Part shown: piece after piece, positions 128 to 11,639 of the stretch
How positions within the stretch are numbered: the stretch's first letter is position 1
Layout: the number at the start of each line of letters is the position of its first letter
Program-made: the position numbers and the translations under genes
Notes under the pieces: generated by a model
What the model was told of the DNA's origin: nothing
Seen by the model: only the letters and a program-made list of their open reading frames with translations
The model's database searches: none
Origin: Maribacter sp. 4G9
Lineage (GTDB): Bacteria; Bacteroidota; Bacteroidia; Flavobacteriales; Flavobacteriaceae
DNA: 64,000 nt
Direction: 5' to 3'
Assembly (NCBI RefSeq): GCF_002742265.1
Contig: NZ_MDGL01000179.1
Span: forward strand, 1-64,000

Positions 128-189
128 GTACGGATCCATTTTTTCACGGATTAATATCTTGTGCAACGGTTACCATTGTTGTGCTTTCG

Positions 190-954
190 TTATTTTTTTA
201 TTTCCAATTCAATGTCAACCAAAATTTCCTCTATTTGCTCTTTTATTCCACCAAAAAATCTTGGTCCATTAGTCGCCTGAATTGTTAAATAGTAATCTAA
301 AAGATTGTTTTCAAATTCAATTAAACCGAAAACTCCCTTATTGCTTGAATTGTCCGAAATTGATTCATACTCAAAATTAAGACCTCTGTTAGCTAAAACT
401 CTTCGTACACTTCCATTTTTATTTAATTGCTTTAGCATTATATCTTTCGTTGCAAGAGTATAGTTTTCTTGTATTTTTAAATAATCCAATGTGCTCTCGA
501 AAGATGCGATTTTTTGTCTTAATCCTTCATTTTGAATTAGATTAAGATTCCCAGAACTAATAATATCTGTCAAGACTCCTTTTGAAGGGGTGTATGTTGC
601 ATCTCCTTTAAAAACTGAATATATAATTTCAGACACTATTTTTTCACTAATGGTGTCGCGAATATTAGTATCAAATAATGATAGCATATTTTCAACTGAA
701 TTTATTAGATTTTTATTTTTTGTGAGACAATCATCAATTTTATTTAGGTTAGTTTTAAATTCAGATTTTAGTGATAATAAATAAGTTTGCTCTATTTTTC
801 TTTGCTGTCTATTATTATTGAGATTATTTATTTGTAATGCAATCAAAATCCCAATAACAACAAGTATTATTTCCCCAACTGCATATTTAAAATACTTTCC
901 AGTTTTGTTTTCCATAAGCAAGTTTTGGCGGATTTTTCTAAAGATTTTTATCAT
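190..954 (-). CDS. DUF6090 family membrane protein (cassette 1)
   Basis: This 254-residue protein starts with a short basic region and then the motif KYFKYAVGEIILVVIGILIA (residues about 21-40), which holds a single membrane segment and is the hallmark of the Bacteroidota family DUF6090. The rest is a hydrophilic, partly helical domain with a KIEQTYLLSLKSEF-type stretch just after the membrane helix. It is probably anchored in the inner membrane with the bulk outside the membrane. Its function is unknown. Start 954 lies 22 bp inside the right cassette boundary, and the stop is 3 bp from the left boundary, so the gene fills its cassette. DUF6090 genes are very common in flavobacterial genomes and often occur in accessory DNA (family knowledge). 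Confidence 0.85.
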   Translation of the reverse strand: MIKIFRKIRQNLLMENKTGKYFKYAVGEIILVVIGILIALQINNLNNNRQQRKIEQTYLLSLKSEFKTNLNKIDDCLTKNKNLINSVENMLSLFDTNIRDTISEKIVSEIIYSVFKGDATYTPSKGVLTDIISSGNLNLIQNEGLRQKIASFESTLDYLKIQENYTLATKDIMLKQLNKNGSVRRVLANRGLNFEYESISDNSSNKGVFGLIEFENNLLDYYLTIQATNGPRFFGGIKEQIEEILVDIELEIKK

Positions 955-978
955 TGGTTAGCGGTTGGTTATAATGAA

Positions 979-1391
979 GCACAACGCAGGGCTATGTGAA
1001 GCCACGTTACGGGTTTTAAATTTACGCAACTTGTTGGGATAAATTTACAAATACGTGTTGAACGTGGCCAGGTTGCATATAGCCGTTGATATGTACAGTT
1101 TTCCTCGATGGCGCCTAAAGGTGATAGGTTGGATGGTCCCTCATCCTACGGATTATGCAAACTGGCATGGCCCTGCGATGATGTACAAATCCCAAGGGGC
1201 GGGAATTGGAGCCTTTGGCGACAATGTAGCGACTTGGGTTCACCTTTAGGTGAATTGTACATCATCGTGATTGTATAAGATTAGTTGCGTGTACTAAATA
1301 TTAACTTTAAAAATAAGCAATACAAAAGAATCACGCAATTAGTTTCCAAAAAGGAAACAACTAGCAATTAATTTTATACTGTGTTGTGTGG
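979..1391. repeat. Composite attC-like repeat, copy 1
   Basis: The core is 981-1267, followed by a hairpin stem GTATAAGATTAGTTGCGTG (1273-1291) that pairs with an imperfect complement near 1358-1379, and then the next cassette end GTTGTGTG (1383-1390). Inside the core, 986-1010 and 1060-1088 form an imperfect attC-like stem (GCCACGTT / AACGTGGC, GGCTAT / ATAGCC) with extrahelical bases. It encloses a nested AAATTTA / TAAATTT hairpin. The second half of the core has perfect 13-bp arms CGATGATGTACAA (1176-1188) and TTGTACATCATCG (1255-1267). The variable loop (1292-1357) holds a GTTTCC / GGAAAC hairpin. This copy carries G at 1012 (CGGGTTTT), like copy 5. Confidence 0.85.
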
Positions 1392-1530
1392 CGTTTTTTA
1401 TGTTTAAGTCGGTTTGTAATTTTATTATTTCGGTTTTAAAGGCAGATAATTTTATTCCTTTTAGAATAGATTATAAGCGTGAGTTTAAATATTATAAGTT
1501 CTTTTTCATTACTATTGCTAAAATCATTCG

Positions 1531-1884
1531 TTAAGGTTCAACATTAGGAAGCGCAATGTTTAGGCTAAACTTTATTCTTGAAACTGATTCATTTATCTCT
1601 TTGTCAGATAATTTTCCACCAAGTTTTAACGAATAAACATTAATTCCGCCTTCTCCACCTGTTTCTTGTGAGCTTGATGTGGTTACAGCTATATCAAAAT
1701 CTATTTTAGATACAGCTCTTGCGCCTTCTTCGTTTCCGAAATATGTTGTTTGGTTTTTATCAAAATCCCACTTTCCGACATGAGGATTAATTCTCGCACC
1801 GTTTTCATTTGCGAAATCTTGCGATTCTTTAATTCCTTTTATAATTGATTTTAGTGTGTTTGAAATGAATACGTCGAGTTGCAT
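1531..1884 (-). CDS. Trypco2-like domain protein (cassette 2)
   Basis: This 117-residue soluble protein has no signal peptide. The C-terminal half contains KIDFDIAVTTSSSQETGGEGG followed by alternating strands and ends VSRIKFSLNIALP. That layout (a beta hairpin, a glycine-rich loop, and an SVSRIKF-x-(I/V)-x-LP ending) resembles the trypsin-co-occurring domain 2 (Trypco2) family, found in predicted conflict or signalling operons. The assignment is by eye from this pattern. The N-terminal residues VFISNTLKSIIKGIKESQ form an amphipathic helix, also typical of that family. The start codon lies only 5 bp from a small divergent frame at 1890. A gap of 140 bp separates the stop from the left cassette end and shows no gene. 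Confidence 0.55.
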   Translation of the reverse strand: MQLDVFISNTLKSIIKGIKESQDFANENGARINPHVGKWDFDKNQTTYFGNEEGARAVSKIDFDIAVTTSSSQETGGEGGINVYSLKLGGKLSDKEINESVSRIKFSLNIALPNVEP

Positions 1885-1889
1885 TTGGT

Positions 1890-2024
1890 ATGGATTTAGT
1901 ATTTGAAAAATTAAATAAAGCGAAACAAGTTCTTAATTTGTCTGATGATGAATTTAAAGGTGTTTGTTTAGCTATTGATGAAATGAAAAACAAGCAAAAA
2001 GTTAATCAAGGTCAGAAGGAATAA
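1890..2024 (+). CDS. Possible 44-aa small protein (cassette 2)
   Basis: An ATG-started frame encodes 44 residues (MDLVFEKLNKAKQVLNLSDD and onward, ending QGQKE). It is rich in Lys, Asp and Glu and looks like one or two short helices. It runs opposite to both minus-strand genes of the cassette: its start is 5 bp from the start of the 1884 gene, and its last 23 bp overlap the end of the 2202 gene. The composition is plausible for a real peptide and the frame fills an otherwise empty 117-bp gap. Chance occurrence in AT-rich DNA cannot be excluded. No family recognised. Confidence 0.3.
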   Translation: MDLVFEKLNKAKQVLNLSDDEFKGVCLAIDEMKNKQKVNQGQKE

Positions 2025-2202
2025 AATAATTTCCGTTTAGCTCGTATAGATTTTCTTTTATGTGTTTTAGTTTATCGACTTGTTCTTGTTCTAAATATGT
2101 ATATACTGAAATGTCAGATATATTAAATTTAGTAATATCATCAAGTCCGTTTACTTTAATAAATCGGTAAAGATTGGTTTCTTTGTCAAAATTGTTTTTC
2201 AT
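2002..2202 (-). CDS. Hypothetical 66-aa protein (cassette 2)
   Basis: A small acidic soluble protein of 66 residues (MKNNFDKETNLYRFIKVNGL and onward) with no membrane segment or signal peptide. It is rich in Asn, Asp, Leu and Tyr and would form a small helix/strand mix. It is not recognised. Its start is 36 bp inside the right cassette boundary, the usual distance here, so it is probably the first gene of cassette 2 on the minus strand, with the Trypco2-like gene second, 117 bp downstream. Confidence 0.5.
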   Translation of the reverse strand: MKNNFDKETNLYRFIKVNGLDDITKFNISDISVYTYLEQEQVDKLKHIKENLYELNGNYFIPSDLD

Positions 2203-2238
2203 AAGTCCAAAATATTATTATTAACGTGTATTAAATGA

Positions 2239-2653
2239 CACACAACGCAGGGCTATGTGAAGCCACGTTACGGATTTTAAATTTACGCAACTTGTTGGGA
2301 TAAATTTACAAATACGTGTTGAACGTGGCCAGGTTGCATATAGCCGTTGATATGTACAGTTTTCCTCGATGGCGCCTAAAGGTGATAGGTTGGATGGTCC
2401 CTCATCCTACGGATTATGCAAACTGGCATGGCCCTGCGATGATGTACAAATCCCAAGGGGCGGGAATTGGAGCCTTTGGCGACAATGTAGCGACTTGGGT
2501 TCACCTTTAGGTGAATTGTACATCATCGGTCTTGTATATGAAAAGTAGCGGGTTTTACAAACTAATTTTTCAGTTTAACAATGACCTATAATTTATTCAT
2601 TTTCTTTTGTTTAAGCGACTAATCCGCTATTTTTTATATACGTTGTTGGCAAC
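2239..2653. repeat. Composite attC-like repeat, copy 2
   Basis: The core 2242-2528 is identical to copy 1 except for one base (CGGATTTT instead of CGGGTTTT). It is followed by the stem GTATATGAAAAGTAGCGG (2534-2551), which pairs with CCGCTATTTTTTATATAC (2624-2641) around a variable loop of about 70 bp. The left end is CACACAAC (belonging to cassette 2), but the right end is GTTGGCAAC (belonging to cassette 3). The two ends of this site therefore do not match each other. Confidence 0.85.
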
Positions 2654-2665
2654 TGGCTTTTCTTT

Positions 2666-3391
2666 TCAGACGCTATGTTGCAATTCTATTTCTGGCATTT
2701 CGTCATAGGTTCGACCATTTAATTCTCTGCCATTTTTCTTTTTGTTTTTTCCGCCCCATTGTTTGAAGAAAAACGCAACGTCTGCCTTTTCACATTGTTC
2801 TTGAATATCAATTACCCAATCAGCATCCATTGGTCTTGGATTGTGTCCACTTTCTCCACCAACAATTACCCAATCAATTTTTTTCAAATTCAAATTCGGA
2901 AGTGCTCCAATTAATGGTTCAAGCGAGAGAAATTTTACTCTTGCATTAGTTTTTCTCAAATAGTCAATTCTATTTTCAACTTTTTGCTCCTCAACTGAAA
3001 CACCCATCCAAATATTATGACTCCATTTTAATTCTTTGTGCAATTCCAATAATCTTTCCGCTCTTTTTGTCAAGACTTGAAAAACGTGTTGCGGATTATC
3101 GTTCATTACCTTAAAAACCTTTTTTATAAATTCTAGTGGTATTTCTTCGTGAAATAAGTCACTCATCGAGTTTACAAAAACTACTTTTGACTTTTTCCAA
3201 GTATAAGGCACTTTTAAGGCAGATTCGTGTGTACGAACTTTGAAATTGTCTTTATATTTTTCAACTCCCATAGCTTGAAGTCGTTTAGACATAATTTCTG
3301 CATAACAGAATTTACAACCTTGGGAAACTTTAGTGCATCCAGTTGTAGGATTCCAAGTCATTTCTGTCCATTCTATACTTGATTGAGCCAT
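2666..3391 (-). CDS. DUF5131 (phage Gp37/Gp68-like) radical-SAM family protein (cassette 3)
   Basis: This 241-residue protein starts with SSIEWTEMTWNPTTGC and carries three clustered cysteines C19-x6-C26-x2-C29, followed by Tyr-Ala. This is the three-Cys motif of the DUF5131/Gp37-Gp68 family, thought to bind an iron-sulfur cluster as in radical-SAM enzymes. Later motifs match the family: VFVNSMSDLFHEEIP, VFQVLTKRAERL, WMGVSVEEQ, FLSLEPLIG, WVIVGGESGHNPRPMD. The substrate is unknown. It follows the TcmP gene with 2 bp between them, and such pairs are the reason for the name 'three-Cys-motif partner'. The length is normal for the family, so the gene looks intact. Confidence 0.9.
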   Translation of the reverse strand: MAQSSIEWTEMTWNPTTGCTKVSQGCKFCYAEIMSKRLQAMGVEKYKDNFKVRTHESALKVPYTWKKSKVVFVNSMSDLFHEEIPLEFIKKVFKVMNDNPQHVFQVLTKRAERLLELHKELKWSHNIWMGVSVEEQKVENRIDYLRKTNARVKFLSLEPLIGALPNLNLKKIDWVIVGGESGHNPRPMDADWVIDIQEQCEKADVAFFFKQWGGKNKKKNGRELNGRTYDEMPEIELQHSV

Positions 3392-3393
3392 AT

Positions 3394-4230
3394 TTATCTA
3401 TTATATTTTTTTACAATATCGTTAGCAATTTTCACTGCTGTTTTATTGTTGGAAGTTAAGAATAAATGATACATAACTGAATTACTCGAATTTTTTAATT
3501 CGTAAGGTTTAGAAACGTGTTCAAAAACTTCTTTTAATCTGTTTCCATATAATTCAGCCGATTTTTCAATTGCTTTATCTTCTTTTTGAATATGAGTAAA
3601 TTCCTCGAATAATGTTGGGCTTTTAGTGTAAAATAAATCTGTTATATCGTTTTTGCTTATCCCAAGAAATTTTTCGAGTCTAGTCAACCAAGCCTCTGAA
3701 ATTTGTCCATTCTTTTTTAGTAAACGATTAACGCCTAAACCTGTCGGGACTAATATCCACATATCAAGATTTAAACCTTTTAAAGATTCAATAGAACGCC
3801 ATTCAACTTGCATTCCGCAAGGGTCAATGTAGGCTAAAGTCCTTACTGATTTGTTTTTTTGGTCTCTTAAAAAGTTTGAAAGGTCTATTAGCTTTCTATT
3901 ACAATCTTCGTTAGCTAGAAATATTTGTTTTTGAGGAAATAAATCTTTTGTAACTTCTTTTAGACTCTCCAAATTTTCTTCGTCCTTTTCTACGAAGTAG
4001 TAGATATCGAAAGGTCTTGGATTGTCAATTTCAACAATTCTTTTAGCGGCACCAACGGTTATGTCAATATCTACTTTATCGTCTTTGATAATTGAGCCTG
4101 AACCAGCGAAACCGTCAAAATAGAGAAGCTCGAAGAAGTGTTTATCTTTCATTATTTGTAGATAAGCCTTTGCATATTCTACAAGAATCTCAATTTTTAT
4201 TTTAGTCCAATTTCCACCAAATTCATTCAT
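3394..4230 (-). CDS. tcmP: Three-Cys-motif partner protein TcmP (cassette 3)
   Basis: This 278-residue protein has a methyltransferase-like fold signature: the glycine-rich motif YFDGFAGSG (residues 37-45), an acidic second strand (YYFVEKDEENL, about 78-88) and the motif-IV-like sequence AYIDPCGMQVEW (134-145). The C-terminal part is helical and rich in charged residues. This matches TcmP, the partner of DUF5131 proteins. The molecular role of TcmP is unproven, although the fold suggests S-adenosylmethionine or nucleotide binding. The start is 22 bp inside the cassette boundary, and the DUF5131 gene follows after 2 bp, so both are co-transcribed and mobilised together. Confidence 0.85.
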   Translation of the reverse strand: MNEFGGNWTKIKIEILVEYAKAYLQIMKDKHFFELLYFDGFAGSGSIIKDDKVDIDITVGAAKRIVEIDNPRPFDIYYFVEKDEENLESLKEVTKDLFPQKQIFLANEDCNRKLIDLSNFLRDQKNKSVRTLAYIDPCGMQVEWRSIESLKGLNLDMWILVPTGLGVNRLLKKNGQISEAWLTRLEKFLGISKNDITDLFYTKSPTLFEEFTHIQKEDKAIEKSAELYGNRLKEVFEHVSKPYELKNSSNSVMYHLFLTSNNKTAVKIANDIVKKYNR

Positions 4231-4252
4231 TTTTCGGTTGTTTTATCAGCTT

Positions 4253-4666
4253 GTTGCCAACGCAGGGCTATGTGAAGCCACGTTACGGATTTTAAATTTA
4301 CGCAACTTGTTGGGATAAATTTACAAATACGTGTTGAACGTGGCCAGGTTGCATATAGCCGTTGATATGTACAGTTTTCCTCGATGGCGCCTAAAGGTGA
4401 TAGGTTGGATGGTCCCTCATCCTACGGATTATGCAAACTGGCATGGCCCTGCGATGATGTACAAATCCCAAGGGGCGGGAATTGGAGCCTTTGGCGACAA
4501 TGTAGCGACTTGGGTTCACCTTTAGGTGAATTGTACATCATCGGTCTCGTGTATGAGCAGTAAAGGTTTTTATTTACTGCCTTTTCGAGCTGTTGTTGTG
4601 ATTGTTTTTGCGACTACTTTAAGGATTGTCGTTTAGCCTTTATTGCTTATACACATTGTTGTGCTT
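4253..4666. repeat. Composite attC-like repeat, copy 3
   Basis: The core 4257-4543 has CGGATTTT as in copies 2 and 4. The distal stem GTGTATGAGCAGTAAAGG (4549-4566) pairs perfectly with CCTTTATTGCTTATACAC (4637-4654). The left end GTTGCCAAC belongs to cassette 3 and the right end GTTGTGCTT to cassette 4. The first four core bases differ from other copies because here the cassette end is of the GTTGGCAAC type. Confidence 0.85.
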
Positions 4667-4736
4667 TCGGCTTTTATTTGTGCGTTCTGTTTGTCAGTCA
4701 GAATTAGTTTGTTAAATTAGTCAAAAACTTTTTATT

Positions 4737-4940
4737 ATGAAACCGAAAGTTATTTTAAATGAGATTCCTTTTTCAGACGATTTTATAAAATCAATACCCA
4801 ATGAAGGTATAAACTCTCAAGGAAGAGACGCACAAAAAGATTTTAATTCTATGGATGTGTCTCAAACACTTGATGGGGAAAGTCCTTGGGTTATTATTGT
4901 TTGTACTCCTAATGGGCTTTTAATTGATAAAAATTTTTAG
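4737..4940 (+). CDS. Hypothetical 67-aa protein (cassette 4)
   Basis: A small soluble protein (MKPKVILNEIPFSDDFIKSI and onward, 67 residues) with no membrane segment. It contains a hydrophobic strand SPWVIIVCTPNGLLI near the C terminus. It is one of only two plus-strand candidates in the array and is convergent with the 89-aa gene, sharing 4 bp at the stops. It is not recognised. The start ATG lies 70 bp inside the left cassette end and is preceded by an AT-rich stretch that could hold its own promoter. Confidence 0.5.
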   Translation: MKPKVILNEIPFSDDFIKSIPNEGINSQGRDAQKDFNSMDVSQTLDGESPWVIIVCTPNGLLIDKNF

Positions 4941-5206
4941 TCACTTAAACTTGGTTTTATTTTTGGAAGGTTGTCCAAGTCAATTATCCAACCTATTCTT
5001 TTCTTACATACTTCTTTCAATCTGTTTATCTCATTGTCAAGACCTTTTTCTCCATTCCAACGTTTTTCCATTGTCTCATAAAGGTTAGCTAAAGCTGTTC
5101 TAAAATAAACACTTTTTATAGATTGGTCAACGACATCTAAATATGTATTACTTGGATTTTTATTAGGTATTTCTGATGGGAAATGATATTCTTTTTTTGT
5201 GTCCAT
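4937..5206 (-). CDS. Hypothetical 89-aa protein (cassette 4)
   Basis: A soluble protein of 89 residues (MDTKKEYHFPSEIPNKNPSN and onward) with a mid-region TALANLYETMEKRWNGEKGL that is probably helical and a C-terminal CKKRIGWIIDLDNLPKIKPS. It is not recognised. The start is 14 bp from the right cassette boundary, as for the other first genes. It is convergent with the 67-aa gene (4-bp overlap). A convergent toxin/immunity arrangement is possible but nothing in the sequence proves it. Confidence 0.5.
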   Translation of the reverse strand: MDTKKEYHFPSEIPNKNPSNTYLDVVDQSIKSVYFRTALANLYETMEKRWNGEKGLDNEINRLKEVCKKRIGWIIDLDNLPKIKPSLSD

Positions 5207-5220
5207 TTGTTTTTTAGCTG

Positions 5221-5638
5221 AAGCACAACGCAGGGCTATGTGAAGCCACGTTACGGATTTTAAATTTACGCAACTTGTTGGGATAAATTTACAAATACGT
5301 GTTGAACGTGGCCAGGTTGCATATAGCCGTTGATATGTACAGTTTTCCTCGATGGCGCCTAAAGGTGATAGGTTGGATGGTCCCTCATCCTACGGATTAT
5401 GCAAACTGGCATGGCCCTGCGATGATGTACAAATCCCAAGGGGCGGGAATTGGAGCCTTTGGCGACAATGTAGCGACTTGGGTTCACCTTTAGGTGAATT
5501 GTACATCATCGGTCTTGTGTATGAGCAGTAGCGGGTTTCAAGCGACTACTTTTCGGATAACAATATACTTTTTTAAAATGAAAAAACGGTTCAGGTTAGT
5601 ACCTAAACCGCTATTGCTTATACACCGTGTTGTGTGCC
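5221..5638. repeat. Composite attC-like repeat, copy 4
   Basis: The core is 5225-5511 (CGGATTTT variant). The distal stem GTGTATGAGCAGTAGCGG (5517-5534) pairs perfectly with CCGCTATTGCTTATACAC (5608-5625). The variable loop includes a second hairpin, CGGTTCAGGT / ACCTAAACCG (5587-5610). The left end AAGCACAAC belongs to cassette 4 and the right end GTTGTGTGCC to cassette 5. Confidence 0.85.
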
Positions 5639-5643
5639 GTTTT

Positions 5644-5997
5644 TTATTCATTTTCAAGTTCGTTCTGTATCTTTTTCGGTAGTCCCGAAACCACTAAGTC
5701 GTATGAATCTTTAATCCATTCTTCCATCTGTCCGTTCGTTATTTTTCCATTGGTCAAAATACTGTTCCAATGTTTTTTGTTCATATAATAGCCTGGGATT
5801 ACTTCTTCGTGCTTTTCTCGAAGCAACAGAGCCTTTTCGGGCTCGCATTTTACATTGATAAGTTCAAAGGTCTCAATGTTGGTCGAGGAAAACATTTTGC
5901 CTTTAACGGAAAATACCAAAGTCGTTTTGTCAAATGGCATTTTTTCTTCTGCACCTTTTAGGGAAAGGCAGTAGTTTCGGTAGGTTTCTATGTCCAT
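5644..5997 (-). CDS. MmcQ/YjbR family protein (cassette 5)
   Basis: This 117-residue protein begins MDIETYRNYCLSLKGAEEKM, with the typical continuation PFDKTTLVFSVKGKMFSSTN and then NVKCEPEKALLLREKHEEVIPGYYMNKKHWNSI. These are the conserved segments of the MmcQ/YjbR (CyaY-like fold) family, small cytoplasmic proteins often called DNA-binding although the evidence is thin. Length is normal. Its start overlaps the stop of the VOC gene by 1 nt (TAATG), implying translational coupling. The stop lies 5 bp from the cassette boundary. Confidence 0.85.
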   Translation of the reverse strand: MDIETYRNYCLSLKGAEEKMPFDKTTLVFSVKGKMFSSTNIETFELINVKCEPEKALLLREKHEEVIPGYYMNKKHWNSILTNGKITNGQMEEWIKDSYDLVVSGLPKKIQNELENE

Positions 5998-6419
5998 TAC
6001 TCACTTTTTTCTGCAAATCCAAGTATGTAGCCGTTATTGTCCTTTAAGTAAAATTCACGCATTCCGTACCAAGCCGTTTTCAGTTCGGTCGGGTTCAAGC
6101 CTTTGTCCTTTATTTGCTCGTAAAAGTTGTCAATTCCGTCAATTTCCATATAGAACGAAACACTCGCTCCCATTGAAAGTTCTTTTGCAAGACGAACATC
6201 TTCTTTAAAACTATCGGTTCTTTGGAACATCATTTCTACGCTGTCCTTGCTTACCAAGGCGTAAACGTATTCCTTTCCGTCCGTTAATGATTGTTCAATT
6301 CCGTCCTGTGTTTCGGGAACTGCCATTACCAACGAAAAACCTAAAGCATTTTGATAAAATTCTATGGTTTCCCTAATGTTCTTTACCTCAAAATTGGGCG
6401 TTAATTTGTTTGCTTTCAT
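5997..6419 (-). CDS. VOC family (glyoxalase/bleomycin resistance-like) protein (cassette 5)
   Basis: 140 residues when started at the ATG at 6419. The upstream in-frame extension to 6623 runs inside the AraC gene and shows no similarity to the fold. The sequence MKANKLTPNFEVKNIRETIE, FYQNALGF, SVEMMFQ, SVSFYMEIDGIDNFYEQIKD and EFYLKDNNGYILGFAE shows the two beta-alpha-beta-beta-beta modules of the vicinal oxygen chelate fold. The final E of the ILGFAE segment is in the usual metal-ligand position. It could bind or modify a small toxic molecule; the substrate is unknown. It lies between the AraC regulator gene (29 bp upstream) and the MmcQ gene. Confidence 0.85.
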   Translation of the reverse strand: MKANKLTPNFEVKNIRETIEFYQNALGFSLVMAVPETQDGIEQSLTDGKEYVYALVSKDSVEMMFQRTDSFKEDVRLAKELSMGASVSFYMEIDGIDNFYEQIKDKGLNPTELKTAWYGMREFYLKDNNGYILGFAEKSE

Positions 6420-6448
6420 TTCTCTGTTTTTTAATTGAAAGCACAAAT

Positions 6449-7195
6449 TTACGTTTCCTGAATGGTGGTCAATTGTAAAAATCGGTCGTTTTTGTTGAGG
6501 TACAGATTTGTTGGTGTCGAACCCGTGATTTGCTTTACTTGCTTGATAAAATGGGCTTGGTCGTAATAATCGTTTTCTGGGAAAAGTTTGCCGTTCGCAA
6601 TATGCTTTAACGAAGAATGACATTTTAGGATATTGCAGAATGTTTTGAGCGAAAATCCGAAACGGCTGTTGAAATATCTGTTAATTTGCCGACTGCTCCA
6701 AAAAATCCGCTCTGAAAGTTCTTGGACTGAAATTTCGCCTTTTCGTTCGTAAAGAATCTTGAAAAGTTCAAATTTTCTGCTGTCGATTTCTTTTAGGTTT
6801 TTGAGTCCGTATTGCAGTTTCTCGGTTATCGAATCGGTAAACTTCTCAAAACTGCAAAACTCAAAATTTTCGAAGCCAAAAAAAGTCAATGGTAGTTCCG
6901 TTTTTGTGTTTTTGATTTCTTTGATTGACTGTTTGAAAACATATTCGGCAGAAATCAGCTTAAAGCGAACTCCAATCAGTTTGGTGTTTTTTGGTATGGA
7001 AATTTGGATTTGTTTTGTCCAAACTCCTGTCAGCGAAACTTTAGTAATTTGCCCATTTTTGATTTCAATAATCAAGTCGAAAAATCCGTCTGGAAGTATT
7101 TCGTAGTTGCATTCATTTTCGCAAGTTTCAAACTCCCAAAAGCTTTTTATGAAGTTGGAAATAAATCCTTTGGTATGTTTTTCTTGGTAGTTCAC
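6449..7195 (-). CDS. AraC family transcriptional regulator (cassette 5)
   Basis: 248 residues. The N-terminal half (YEILPDGFFDLIIEIKNG, LIGVRFKLISAEYVF) resembles the DUF6597-type sensor domain. The C-terminal part from about residue 160 has the first helix-turn-helix ISVQELSERIFWSSRQINRY followed by FNSRFGFSLKTFCNILKCH. The second helix-turn-helix region AHFIKQVKQITGSTPTNLY is the AraC signature. It is the first gene of cassette 5, 15 bp inside the boundary, and probably controls the VOC and MmcQ genes behind it. The whole cassette thus looks like a self-contained regulated response unit. The inducer is unknown. Confidence 0.85.
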   Translation of the reverse strand: MNYQEKHTKGFISNFIKSFWEFETCENECNYEILPDGFFDLIIEIKNGQITKVSLTGVWTKQIQISIPKNTKLIGVRFKLISAEYVFKQSIKEIKNTKTELPLTFFGFENFEFCSFEKFTDSITEKLQYGLKNLKEIDSRKFELFKILYERKGEISVQELSERIFWSSRQINRYFNSRFGFSLKTFCNILKCHSSLKHIANGKLFPENDYYDQAHFIKQVKQITGSTPTNLYLNKNDRFLQLTTIQET

Positions 7196-7210
7196 GCGTT
7201 TTTTTCAAAT

Positions 7211-7628
7211 GGCACACAACGCAGGGCTATGTGAAGCCACGTTACGGGTTTTAAATTTACGCAACTTGTTGGGATAAATTTACAAATACGTGTTGAACGT
7301 GGCCAGGTTGCATATAGCCGTTGATATGTACAGTTTTCCTCGATGGCGCCTAAAGGTGATAGGTTGGATGGTCCCTCATCCTACGGATTATGCAAACTGG
7401 CATGGCCCTGCGATGATGTACAAATCCCAAGGGGCGGGAATTGGAGCCTTTGGCGACAATGTAGCGACTTGGGTTCACCTTTAGGTGAATTGTACATCAT
7501 CGTGATTGTATAAGATTAGTTGCGTGTTTAAGCACCTAATTTAGCAAATAAAAACCGAATAGAAAATCCACGTGGATTTTCGTAAGTAAGCTTGCACTAG
7601 CAATTAATTTTATACGGTGTTGTGTGCA
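7211..7628. repeat. Composite attC-like repeat, copy 5
   Basis: The core is 7216-7502 with CGGGTTTT, as in copy 1. The distal stem GTATAAGATTAGTTGCGTG (7508-7526), also identical to copy 1, pairs with CACTAGCAATTAATTTTATAC (7595-7615). The variable loop holds the perfect palindrome AAAATCCACGTGGATTTT (7563-7580). The left end GGCACACAAC belongs to cassette 5 and the right end GTTGTGTGCA to cassette 6. Confidence 0.85.
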
Positions 7629-8203
7629 GTGTTTTTTATTTTTTCATTAGTATCACTTTTCCAATTTACAGTTTTTGGCTTATATTTTTCTTTCCATTTG
7701 GCAATATAAAAATCAATATTCCTCATATCTTTTAGTACGAGTTCTGATAACTCTTTCAGCCTTTTATTAAATCCATTTTTCGTAAAATACCTTCCAATTT
7801 TATGTTCAGGTAAAAACAACATATAAAACAAAGGCATACAGTCATAAGTGTCCGAACGTAATCTCATTTCGGTCAAACTATTTGGTGGTAAATGGAATTT
7901 TAATCCGTCAGATTCTTTCAGTTCTTCAAGAGAATTGATTTCAGGTCTTATCTTGAAAATGTTTAATCTTATCTGAATCCAATTTTCATTTCTCAAAATA
8001 TGAGTTTCTATTTTTTGCAACTCATTTTCTTTTTTTAATCTGTACATTGTGTATGAGAAATCATTATGGTTTGTTCTTCCATACCAATCTGTATTAAATG
8101 GACTTTTTTCAAATCCTTGTTTTTTCAAGGCTACTATTCCTTTTTCAAGAAACAATTTATTCCTTAAATCCAGATTTTCTTTCGGTTTGAGTTTGTAGAA
8201 CAT
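7610..8203 (-). CDS. Hypothetical 197-aa protein (cassette 6)
   Basis: A soluble basic protein with no signal peptide or membrane segment. Recognisable stretches are PFNTDWYGRTNHNDFSYTMY, NENWIQIRLNIFKIRPEINS and LPEHKIGRYFTKNGFN. It is not assigned to a family. Its last codons (ACHNTV-like ending NTAHNTV) are read from the cassette-end motif GTTGTGTGCA and the adjoining hairpin arm, so the stop codon is supplied by the recombination site itself, as often happens in integron cassettes. The start is 48 bp inside the right boundary of the array. Confidence 0.65.
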   Translation of the reverse strand: MFYKLKPKENLDLRNKLFLEKGIVALKKQGFEKSPFNTDWYGRTNHNDFSYTMYRLKKENELQKIETHILRNENWIQIRLNIFKIRPEINSLEELKESDGLKFHLPPNSLTEMRLRSDTYDCMPLFYMLFLPEHKIGRYFTKNGFNKRLKELSELVLKDMRNIDFYIAKWKEKYKPKTVNWKSDTNEKIKNTAHNTV

Positions 8204-8251
8204 ATTCTATTTTGATACTCGATTTTTGTTTTTTTACGGTAGTTCCGACAT

Positions 8252-8284
8252 TGCACACAACACATAAATATCTCTGTATTTATG
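8252..8284. other. Right-hand end of the cassette array (candidate attI-like or terminal site)
   Basis: The cassette 6 end TGCACACAAC (8252-8261) is followed not by the 287-bp core but by a small hairpin CATAAATA / TATTTATG (8263-8270 and 8277-8284). On the minus strand this is the place where an integron attI site would be expected, yet the next gene to the right is chromosomal glycosyltransferase DNA, with no integrase. Confidence 0.4.
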
Positions 8285-8355
8285 CTATTTTTTTACAAGA
8301 TACCATTTATTGCGCATCCACTATATACAAAGGGGTGAATAATTTTTAGGGGTCA

Positions 8356-8408
8356 GGCATTTTATATATCAATTGGGTACTTTTCAAATTGTTGATATAC
8401 AAAATGCC
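8356..8408. repeat. Imperfect inverted repeat in the array flank
   Basis: Arms beginning GGCATTTTATATATCAA (8356-) and the complement of GGCATTTTGTATATCAAC (ending 8408) form a stem of about 20 bp with a short loop. The motif ATGCCCG recurs just after it (8403-8409 and 8417-8424). The 8285-8634 stretch otherwise shows no gene; it is AT-rich with a second small hairpin, GTGCGAAGTTTG...CCTCGCAC, near 8428-8453. It may be a relic of array-chromosome junction DNA. Confidence 0.5.
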
Positions 8409-8634
8409 CGTATATGGAATGCCCGCTGTGCGAAGTTTGCAAACCTCGCACTTCATCAATGCATCACCTACTTTAAAACTTCGAAGAGCGGGATGACCGA
8501 GCGTAGCTACCGATGAATACCTTTGAAAAACAATAAGAATTAAATGAATATTTGTACATCAACAATTGTGTTTAGATCATTAATAATCTATATTTCTTTT
8601 ACATGAATAATATAACCAATAATAACATAAGGGC

Positions 8635-8662
8635 ATAAAAAAGGACGGCCATCGCCGTCCTT
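8635..8662 (-). terminator. Rho-independent terminator of the GT2 operon
   Basis: AAGGACGGC / GCCGTCCTT arms around a short loop, with a run of T residues on the minus strand, lie 22 bp after the stop of the 8685 gene. A strong GC stem in AT-rich DNA. Confidence 0.85.
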
Positions 8663-8684
8663 TATATTTAAACAAATTTGTCTT

Positions 8685-10169
8685 TTATGCCCGGGCCGTT
8701 AAGCTTTTAAAGAATACAAAGCTAAAGCCTAGGAACAACATAAAGTGGAACGGGAAGAGTCCAAAATCGTTCAACGGAACTGCACTGTACATGCCAAAAA
8801 GGAAGTACAACATCAAGGCGAATTCCAAGATCATATTGGGGGACAATTTCTTGGCCAAATACTTGTTGCCCTTCCAACTCTGGGTCAGATTGTTTATATT
8901 GAATTTGGGCGTACGTACAAATTCACTGCGCTTGCCCATATGGCCTTCCAATACCGCAATGGAGTTGTGCAGGGAAAAGCCCAAGGCCACTGAGAAGAAG
9001 GTAAAGAACAATTTGATATAGTCTACAAATCCATCAAAACTACTGCCCTGTACGCTCTTATAGGTAAACCAATAACAGATAAAAAGAATGATGGTGCTTA
9101 CCACAAATAGATTCAACAGTGAGAATACCCAATCCAAGTGCCCAAAAGTGTTTTTGATATATAGCGCAGGGATGCTTAAAAGGGCTACCAAAAACACACA
9201 TAGGAACATACTACTGTTCAATAGGTGCATCACCCCATGGAATTTGGTCTTGAAAGGAATGTTCTTGGCGGTGATGACGCTCCAAACGGTCTTTCTAAAG
9301 TTTTCCGCACCGCCCTTGTTCCAACGGAACTGTTGGGAACGTGCCGCACTGATTACCACGGGAAGCTCGGCAGGGGTTTCTACATCCTCCAAGTATTTAA
9401 ATTTCCAGTTCTTTAACTGGGCACGGTAGCTAAGGTCCAAATCTTCGGTCAAGGTATCGCCCTCCCAGTTACCGGCATCCAAGATGGTCTCTTTTCTCCA
9501 AATACCTGCGGTACCGTTAAAATTGATAAAGTGTCCTTTGGCATTTCTACCTACTTGTTCCAAGGTAAAATGGGCGTCGAGGGCAAAAGCCTGTATTTTG
9601 GTCAAGGTGGAATAGTCACGGTTCAAGTGTCCCCAACGGGTCTGTACCACGCCAATTTCAGGATCTTTAAAATAGATGACGGTTTTCTTTAACCAATCGG
9701 AAGATGGCATAAAGTCGGCATCAAAGATGGCAATGAACTCGCCCTTGGCAATCTTTAGTCCTTCCTTGAGCGCTCCGGCCTTAAAGCCCGTTCTATCGGT
9801 CCTTCGAATATGTTGTATGTCCAACCCGGTTTCCTGTAGTTCTGAAATGCGTTGCGCGGTAACGGCAACCGAGTCATCGGTAGAATCGTCCAGTACCTGG
9901 ATTTCCAGTTTACTTTTTGGGTATTCTATTTTGGCAATGTTCTCCAAAAGGCGTTCCATGACATATTCCTCGTTGTACACGGGTAGCTGGATGGTCACAA
10001 ATGGAATTTCCTTGGGATCTAATAAATTGAATTTTGGTGCTGTCTGGTTCTTTCTTTTTTGGGTAAGGTAATTGACCAAAAGATTCAATTGGGCCAAACT
10101 GTAAAAGAAGATCAACAGCAGTGCAATACTATAGATTGCGATGATAATGTAAGAGATGGTAAGTGCCAT
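8685..10169 (-). CDS. Family 2 glycosyltransferase, cellulose synthase-like, membrane-bound
   Basis: 494 residues. An N-terminal membrane helix (about 1-25) is followed by a cytoplasmic GT-A domain with VTIQLPVYNEEYVMERLL, the nucleotide-binding DDSTDD, the DADF metal site, TEDLDLSYRAQ and QQFRWNKGGAENF. Those are the D,D,D,Q(Q/R)xRW catalytic set of processive-type GT2 enzymes. Four to five membrane helices follow in the C-terminal 200 residues. It likely transfers a sugar from a nucleotide sugar to a lipid or polysaccharide at the inner membrane; the product is unknown. It is co-transcribed with the smaller GT2 gene upstream (1-bp gap). Length is normal for the family. Confidence 0.9.
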   Translation of the reverse strand: MALTISYIIIAIYSIALLLIFFYSLAQLNLLVNYLTQKRKNQTAPKFNLLDPKEIPFVTIQLPVYNEEYVMERLLENIAKIEYPKSKLEIQVLDDSTDDSVAVTAQRISELQETGLDIQHIRRTDRTGFKAGALKEGLKIAKGEFIAIFDADFMPSSDWLKKTVIYFKDPEIGVVQTRWGHLNRDYSTLTKIQAFALDAHFTLEQVGRNAKGHFINFNGTAGIWRKETILDAGNWEGDTLTEDLDLSYRAQLKNWKFKYLEDVETPAELPVVISAARSQQFRWNKGGAENFRKTVWSVITAKNIPFKTKFHGVMHLLNSSMFLCVFLVALLSIPALYIKNTFGHLDWVFSLLNLFVVSTIILFICYWFTYKSVQGSSFDGFVDYIKLFFTFFSVALGFSLHNSIAVLEGHMGKRSEFVRTPKFNINNLTQSWKGNKYLAKKLSPNMILEFALMLYFLFGMYSAVPLNDFGLFPFHFMLFLGFSFVFFKSLTARA

Positions 10170-11426: not shown

Positions 11427-11514
11427 GCGCTTCGACAGGCTCAGCGTGACATTTATCATACGATTGTCAGTCCGAGCCCTTCGGCTACGCTCAGGACAGG
11501 CCTGTCGAGGACCT
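11427..11514. repeat. REP-like palindromic repeat, copy B
   Basis: About 88 bp: CTTCGACAGGCTCAGCGTGA...GTCAGTCCGAGCCCTTCGGC...AGGCCTGTCGAGGACC. The outer arms TTCGACAGG and CCTGTCGAGG are complementary, and an inner GAGC/GCTC plus CCTTCGG hairpin lies between them. It begins 15 bp upstream of the GIY-YIG start codon. Confidence 0.8.
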
Positions 11515-11550: not shown

Positions 11551-11639
11551 GCGCTTCGACAAGCTCAGCGTGACATTTCGTAATTCGATTGTCAGTCCGA
11601 GCCCTTCGGCTACGCTCAGGACAGGCCTGTCGAGGACCC
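11551..11639. repeat. REP-like palindromic repeat, copy C
   Basis: Nearly identical to the copy at 11427-11514, in the same orientation, with a small change in the central spacer and AAGCTC instead of AGGCTC in the left arm. It lies just downstream of the polyferredoxin stop (11660), so it may also act on that transcript end. Confidence 0.8.

Follow-up and report, generated by a model that had tools for sequence, protein, structure and literature searches.

Integron attC sites fold better on their bottom strand, and IS1111-attC elements take such sites as their targets. The locus described here lies at the start of a window of 64,000 nt (the whole stretch of DNA that was analysed, from Maribacter sp. 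4G9) and is like the integrons and CALIN treated in the parts of the IntegronFinder 2.0 paper considered here (PMC9024848) in its attI-like end, divergent recombinase and cassette array, as well as in its attC-like hairpins, bottom-strand folding preference and GTT...AAC ends. It is unlike integrons in its recombinases: they reach 194-199 bits where the IntI model demands 265, and their matches to this model skip about positions 178-239. Between its gene cassettes stands a repeated element, here called E, that is gene-free, bounded by half-sites and located upstream of other cassettes, as are the gene-less cassettes of Vibrio superintegrons (Blanco et al. 2024, PMC11014356) and the ORF-less cassettes of oral metagenomes (PMC6557892) in the portions of those accounts used here. 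In contrast to what those portions describe, E is one structured unit that is repeated many times in alternation with the gene cassettes of the window, its hairpin loop measures ~170 nt or more, and its system works without a classical IntI. Specific insertion into attC is a trait that E shares with the IS1111-attC elements and with group II introns of integrons (PMC7923331), but E encodes neither a transposase nor a reverse transcriptase, matches no catalytic RNA and lacks inverted outer ends. We found no description of E or of such arrays in the part of the literature that our search covered.

The cassette array and element E

The window starts in a gene-cassette array with its larger ORFs on the minus strand (Table 1). 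GTT and a variable stretch open each cassette body, and the reverse complement of this arm, with AAC as its last letters, closes it; the full arm pairs are GTTGTGCTT/AAGCACAAC (two cassettes), GTTGTGTG/CACACAAC, GTTGGCAAC/GTTGCCAAC and GTTGTGTGCC/GGCACACAAC. Classical integron boxes are 7 nt long, with R' and R'' matched over a shorter core, whereas the cassette arms here are matched over 8-10 nt. An inverted arm of 9 nt was present within 3.5 kb at 119 of 857 AACG sites in 26 array loci, against 16 and 24 in complement-only and reverse-only controls. The attC-like hairpins between cassettes mostly measure ~115-120 or 180 nt, and the plus strand is the more stable one in 51 of the 58 intervals that hold an attC but no E, among which are a few overlaps or duplicates. 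One cassette protein has many flavobacterial relatives. At the far ends of arrays (L083 3028, L084 4423, L088 4909, L156 4953, L168 135 and, on the minus strand, L090 2936), (A/C)CTCAGTTCTTT stands directly before GTT, a motif that looks like a conserved terminal site closing the arrays of different genomes. Outside the array, the window also holds two nearly identical 56-nt repeats (11458-11513 and 11583-11638).

Six cassettes of the window end in AAC, and five of these ends are followed by E and then an attC-like hairpin, the sixth by the attI-like end; if the order were random, a strict alternation of five E and six gene cassettes would have a chance of 21/462, calculated by hand. E is a discrete unit of 281 nt from cut point to cut point, present in five copies, and it sits between AA and CG (AA^CG, plus strand) of attC-like sites, which is the equivalent of the integron cut point. 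The 284-nt stretches that start at 983, 2244, 4259, 5227 and 7218 have a single variable position, 1013 (G or A). The first-pass annotation had drawn attention to a fully conserved segment at 1089-1267, and this is indeed identical in all five copies, with its perfect arms CGATGATGTACAA (1176-1188) and TTGTACATCATCG (1255-1267), its local hairpin TTCACCTTTAGGTGAA (1239-1254) and the two putative pairing partners CCTAAAGGTGA (1114-1124) and TCACCTTTAGG (1240-1250) all in place. The segment is, however, the right part of E rather than a unit of its own, the natural limits being 985-1265. An 'attC-like stem' at 973-1088 that had been set apart from it belongs mostly to E, and the attC of each gene cassette is instead the variable hairpin to the right of E (1266-1382 in the first case), a hairpin that relatives carry without E.

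Table 1. Features of the array in the window. H3 denotes the attC-like hairpin to the right of E, P1 and P4 the two hairpins of E; ^ marks a cut point.
Feature	Position	Strand	Basis or remark
Cassette body, DUF6090 protein	178-984	-	arms GTTGTGCTT / AAGCACAA^C; Pfam
E copy 1	985-1265	+ (better-folding strand)	empty homologous site in G023
P1 5' arm (L'-like)	986-996	+	pairs with 1166-1176; 93.2% of cells paired, double changes at 2 pairs
P1 3' arm (L''-like)	1166-1176	+	covariation table
P4 5' arm (R''-like)	1177-1188	+	pairs with 1255-1266; 100% of cells paired, double changes at 3 pairs (figures count 11 of its 12 pairs)
P4 3' arm (R'-like), ends CAT^CG	1255-1266	+	covariation table, matched-arm scan
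attC-like site (H3) of cassette 1383-2245	1266-1382	+	occurs without E in relatives
Cassette body	1383-2245	-	arms GTTGTGTG / CACACAA^C, matched-arm scan
E copy 2	2246-2526	+	base-by-base alignment
Cassette body, DUF5131 protein plus one protein lacking a Pfam match	2645-4260	-	arms GTTGGCAAC / GTTGCCAA^C
E copy 3	4261-4541	+	base-by-base alignment
Cassette body	4658-5228	-	arms GTTGTGCTT / AAGCACAA^C, matched-arm scan
E copy 4	5229-5509	+	base-by-base alignment
Cassette body, YjbR, glyoxalase-like and DUF6597 proteins	5629-7219	-	arms GTTGTGTGCC / GGCACACAA^C
E copy 5	7220-7500	+	base-by-base alignment
H3 analogues	2527-2644, 4542-4657, 5510-5628, 7501-7618		
First cassette beside attI-like end	7619-8260	-	arms GTTGTGTGCA / TTGCACACAA^C, by eye
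attI-like array end (putative)	8261-8420 (right limit approximate)	+	same sequence on C42
Remnant like right end of an E variant, GACCGAGCG...TTTGTACATCA	8494-8563	+	by eye against L088 12150-12240

The genome of the window (G000), a draft of 196 contigs, holds 19 full or partial repeat matches across 10 contigs; repeats probably break such an assembly, which affects both tandems of E and its total copy number. We collected 37 copies of E (26 distinct) from loci of G000, G001, G010, G014, G028 and G030, that is, from 6 of 36 genomes, of one genus (5 of the 36 by pattern, with G001 added by BLAST and reading). The copies come from selected loci rather than from every contig of each genome, the genome samples hold one genome per species, and the 0.3-kb BLAST scored at most 11 candidates per genome, so copies may have been missed. 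Anchors without a recognisable left end, L157 9080, L160 4911 and L166 133 (the last probably a chance match) are left out of the 37, and L081 279, L087 7179, L090 and L159, in which no right end was found, are left out of the right-end counts. All listed copies have AACG at their left, and of the 33 with a right end 32 end in CATCATC, L083 9641 being without the final C; a G follows in 29 of the 32, an attC-like start with A in two and a recombinase gene in one. The constancy of these end letters is partly built in, since the search patterns required an AACG-like left end (with at most two changes), the internal arm GATGA and the right end ACATCA. The internal arm of E starts with GAT and its right end reads ATC^G, against GTT and AAC^G in the gene cassettes here; E thus lacks the GTT/AAC core of the other cassettes of the array, and the AAC at its left junction belongs to the flanking cassette. 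No match to E was found in a plasmid collection, and viral contigs gave no exact match to one strict pattern. Across the order, a strict pattern found E in 1 of 395 genomes, the window's own; as this was the only genome of its genus in that sample, the absence of E outside the genus rests on the strict pattern.

Fold, covariation and empty sites

On the plus strand E forms two hairpins, P1 and P4. Against 200 dinucleotide shuffles, the E of the window folded as DNA with z = -9.3 (plus strand) and -6.5 (minus strand), and as RNA with z = -7.7 and -6.3, respectively; the plus strand, which is the bottom, non-gene strand, folds better in all 22 distinct E that have a right end. P1 encloses ~170 nt in type A, the type of the window, and ~255 nt in type B. 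Ordinary attCs here have an unpaired spacer, whereas P1 abuts the R arms directly. The left end of E, GCAGGGCTATG, pairs with an internal CATGGCCCTGC in the role of L'/L'', and its right end, TTGTACATCATC, pairs with a neighbouring internal GATGATGTACAA in the role of R'/R'', so that E carries complementary half-sites of its own, as an integron gene-less cassette would.

Both main helices covary. In a covariation table of eight distinct arm combinations, whose shuffles ignore relatedness, 96.6% of the cells of P1 and P4 together were paired (89.1% in shuffles), 13 cells were doubly changed (4.8 in shuffles) and the covariation score was 0.214 (0.073 in shuffles), and none of 500 shuffles was as high in any of the three. 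The number of pairs with a double change (5 against 3.4; 58 of 500 shuffles) and that of pair types (8 against 6.2; 93 of 500) were not outstanding. Sliding controls for P1 and P4 were paired at 53% at most. In P1, two pairs are broken in four chimeric copies, four in one copy and one in two copies; a further helix, P3, was placed by best match alone, and its placement is noisy. The local hairpin, as CACC-NNNN-GGTG, occurs in 10 of 26 distinct copies. A pseudoknot between 1114-1124 and 1240-1250 had also been proposed, and both partners are exact in 9 of 26 distinct copies; they are invariant there, so the pairing itself shows no covariation. Together with the covariation of both main helices, the recombination-site anatomy of the segment bears out part of the first-pass interpretation. 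It had named arrays lacking the segment, together with stems that do not covary, as observations that would speak against its proposal: such arrays exist, and the stems covary.

That the segment had inserted into an ancestral attC is well borne out. For 19 of the 33 E copies with a right end, the loci collected contain an attC relative in which AAC directly meets attC; copy 1 of the window has its empty homologue in G023 (96.8% identity over 125 nt), and empty and occupied attCs within one genome are 92.7% (L077/L161), 93.8% (L077/L078) and 93.4% (two sites of L156) identical. One and the same cassette tail occurs with and without E: that of the DUF6090 cassette is followed by E of type A (window, C7), type B (G030) or another variant (C170), and directly by attC in loci of G006 and G005. 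Among 14 type A copies of G000 (91 pairs), E has a median identity of 99.3% (lowest 93.0), against 63.5% (53.0-88.7; 91 pairs) for the attCs to their right. Given these empty sites, the shared cassette tail and the disparity in identity, E appears to move independently of both its neighbours. In G001 the interior of a recombinase gene, of the subfamily that serves the arrays, directly follows the right end of E, and this end thus behaves as a crossover point; in G030, by contrast, the junction with a recombinase gene falls inside E instead of at its end. At both array boundaries (G001 and G030; L091 ~4190 on the minus strand and L087 ~7460) the recombinase gene fused to E is truncated at its 5' end, and it looks as if recombination at or in E had removed the front of the gene. 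None of the 37 copies stands next to another E, although tandems may collapse in assembly or by recombination.

The recombinase and the attI-like end

No recombinase gene was seen beside the attI-like end of the window. On contig C42 of the same genome, an array ends in ACAAC-ACATAAATATCTCTGTATTTATG, with the same attI-like sequence, and abuts a divergent tyrosine recombinase at L161:1400-2467, so the window locus seems to have lost its own. We read the window sequence and its C42 copy as a putative attI. In G010, an array is bordered by a divergent tyrosine recombinase of 355 aa (L158 11041-12108), which is of the same subfamily as that of C42 (69% identity). At both loci the putative attI lies beside the divergent integrase gene and the cassettes are transcribed away from it; an exception at L158 is the cassette closest to the recombinase, whose ORF is on the opposite strand.

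Although the system works in the manner of an integron, its recombinase does not pass as an IntI. The IntI model gave 199 bits for the C42 protein and 194 for that of G010 (cut-off 265), and matched both in split stretches. None of 36 genomes (22 of the genus and 14 others) had a protein over the cut-off of TIGR02249. The XerA-type model NF040815 (cut-off 220) gave 197 and 209 bits, respectively, whereas other recombinases of the genus pass it with 227-236. In an alignment to the Vibrio IntI structure 2a3v, residues 208-246, which we take to be the IntI-specific domain, have no counterpart in the array recombinase. IntIs carry a specific domain around patch III, according to the part of PMC9668308 drawn on here. 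With the cut-off not reached and the IntI-specific region unmatched, a classical IntI was rejected as the recombinase of the array. The recombinase subfamily (at least 65% identity) occurs in G000, G001, G010, G028, G030 and G032; E and the subfamily are found together in five genomes, E only in one, the recombinase only in one and neither in 29 (Fisher p = 9e-5, ignoring relatedness). A member of the same broad family, a 298-aa tyrosine recombinase, is present on G007:C1 in eight copies of practically equal score and length (e.g., 3447931-3448773).

What element E might be

We suggest that E represents a small cassette without a gene, belonging to an integron-like system and presumably moved by the recombinase of the array, and would put the probability of this reading, which is drawn from sequence comparison, at roughly 0.6. 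No ORF of at least 80 aa lies inside any E copy of the window. Several observations speak against this reading: the right end ATC^G, the missing spacer beside P1, the absence of neighbouring E copies together with the strict alternation in the window, the copies with broken P1 pairs, the two unremarkable covariation measures, the G030 junction inside E and a recombinase that is no classical IntI. The plus strand (bottom, opposite the genes) would fold while single-stranded, the XerA/IntI-like recombinase would cut at CAT^CG and AA^CG, and E would leave as a circle and then insert at the R' side of another attC. The joined ends, whose junction would read TTGTACATCAT-CGCAGGGC, would form a continuous 23-bp stem (with one T.G pair) around a structured loop of ~170 nt; circular E would thus resemble a very long attC, laid out as an attC is when its cassette is circular. 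Each insertion places E directly upstream of the gene of the next cassette.

It could be argued that E is an accessory part of an extended attC, AAC-E-H3-GTT working as one large multi-hairpin site, with copies of E spread from array to array by gene conversion. In the minimum free energy fold of the plus strand, outer arms like CACAACG / CGTGTTGTG do close over the inner hairpins at three of the five window sites (1, 4 and 5), E is always single, and a G follows 29 of the 32 copies that end in CATCATC. However, homologous attCs without E are common, different types of E occur on one cassette tail, and unrelated flanks on both sides leave little homology at which conversion could start, all of which makes this explanation unlikely. 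The empty sites led us to abandon a giant attC (300 nt plus the variable hairpin) as the principal interpretation; it is retained here as a rival. The same precise, site-specific occupation of attC might instead point to a miniature element derived from a transposon, or to a retroelement, that targets attC in the manner of IS1111-attC or group II introns, and an array of this very genome contains a group II intron. Yet the outer ends GCAGGGCTATG / TTGTACATCATC are not inverted copies of each other, there is no Rfam match, the internal arms are cassette-like, and the junctions lie at the equivalent of a recombinase cut point; neither terminal inverted repeats nor a target duplication were found, and what separates an empty from a filled site is E, with no more than a shared CG. 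The first-pass term MITE is therefore not the most fitting, and any origin of this kind seems very improbable. The intron parts themselves (Rfam group-II-D1D4-3 and Intron_gpII; L084 5882-6343, contig C122 of G000) lie ~120 nt past the point at which an attC-like site of another array ends; judged by eye, the intron begins at this very point.

Its place immediately before each gene makes it conceivable that E acts in expression, as a promoter, leader or antisense RNA that is kept for its position upstream of the minus-strand genes. We counted matches to the Bacteroidota-type two-box promoter consensus. The exact two-box promoter was found in none of 26 distinct copies on either strand (expected 0.3 on plus and 0.0 on minus), and with one mismatch it occurred in 1 of 26 on the plus strand (expected 4.4) and in 5 of 26 on the minus, or gene, strand (expected 2.2), all five being one shared site. 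The single box TANNTTTG was exact in 6 of 26 copies on the plus strand (expected 3.9) and in 9 of 26 on the gene strand (expected 3.0), which might speak for such a role, but eight of these nine are one shared site of type B at the end far from the gene. The strand that folds better is antisense to the genes, and Rfam gave nothing for E up to an E-value of 1 near the array (900-8700), its only match in the window being a tRNA. The idea of a promoter or RNA element, raised as one option when the segment was first described, thus finds little support, and we regard it as distinctly unlikely. On the other hand, promoter activity is reported for most of the gene-less cassettes in Vibrio superintegrons (PMC11014356), and a section heading of that paper states that in silico identification of their promoters is not possible, so that our motif counts are weak evidence either way. 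Even less can be said for E as a fragment of a protein-coding gene, namely of the mini-ORF MYSFPRWR...WVHL (52 aa; plus strand, 1091-1249). This ORF is intact in the window copies, but it is open over at least 45 residues in just 9 of 26 distinct copies, is interrupted by frameshifts or stops in others and has no Pfam match; the broken frames largely refute it, in a comparison that concerned this ORF and no shorter ones, and a coding origin is scarcely credible.

Returning to E as a gene-less cassette, the simplest view is that it is a hitch-hiking, partly selfish one. We would put forward only tentatively, and with more doubt than belief, the further idea of a gene-free 'cassette parasite' that consists of little but recombination-site structure and copies itself into attCs, one per site, by means of the XerA/IntI-like recombinase. 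If true, such a parasite turns ordinary attCs into composite sites, and E would play the part of a MITE in an integron, with site-specific recombination as its mode of movement and its fold, not its sequence, as the feature recognised. Gene-less cassettes are already known; what differs here is that a single structured unit has come to occupy many attCs of one array. Its clean empty sites and several covarying types amount to a natural experiment, from which one may learn the features that a folded site must have for an integron-type recombinase. Moreover, since the adjoining recombinase scores below the usual IntI cut-off, integron-like arrays may be under-counted.
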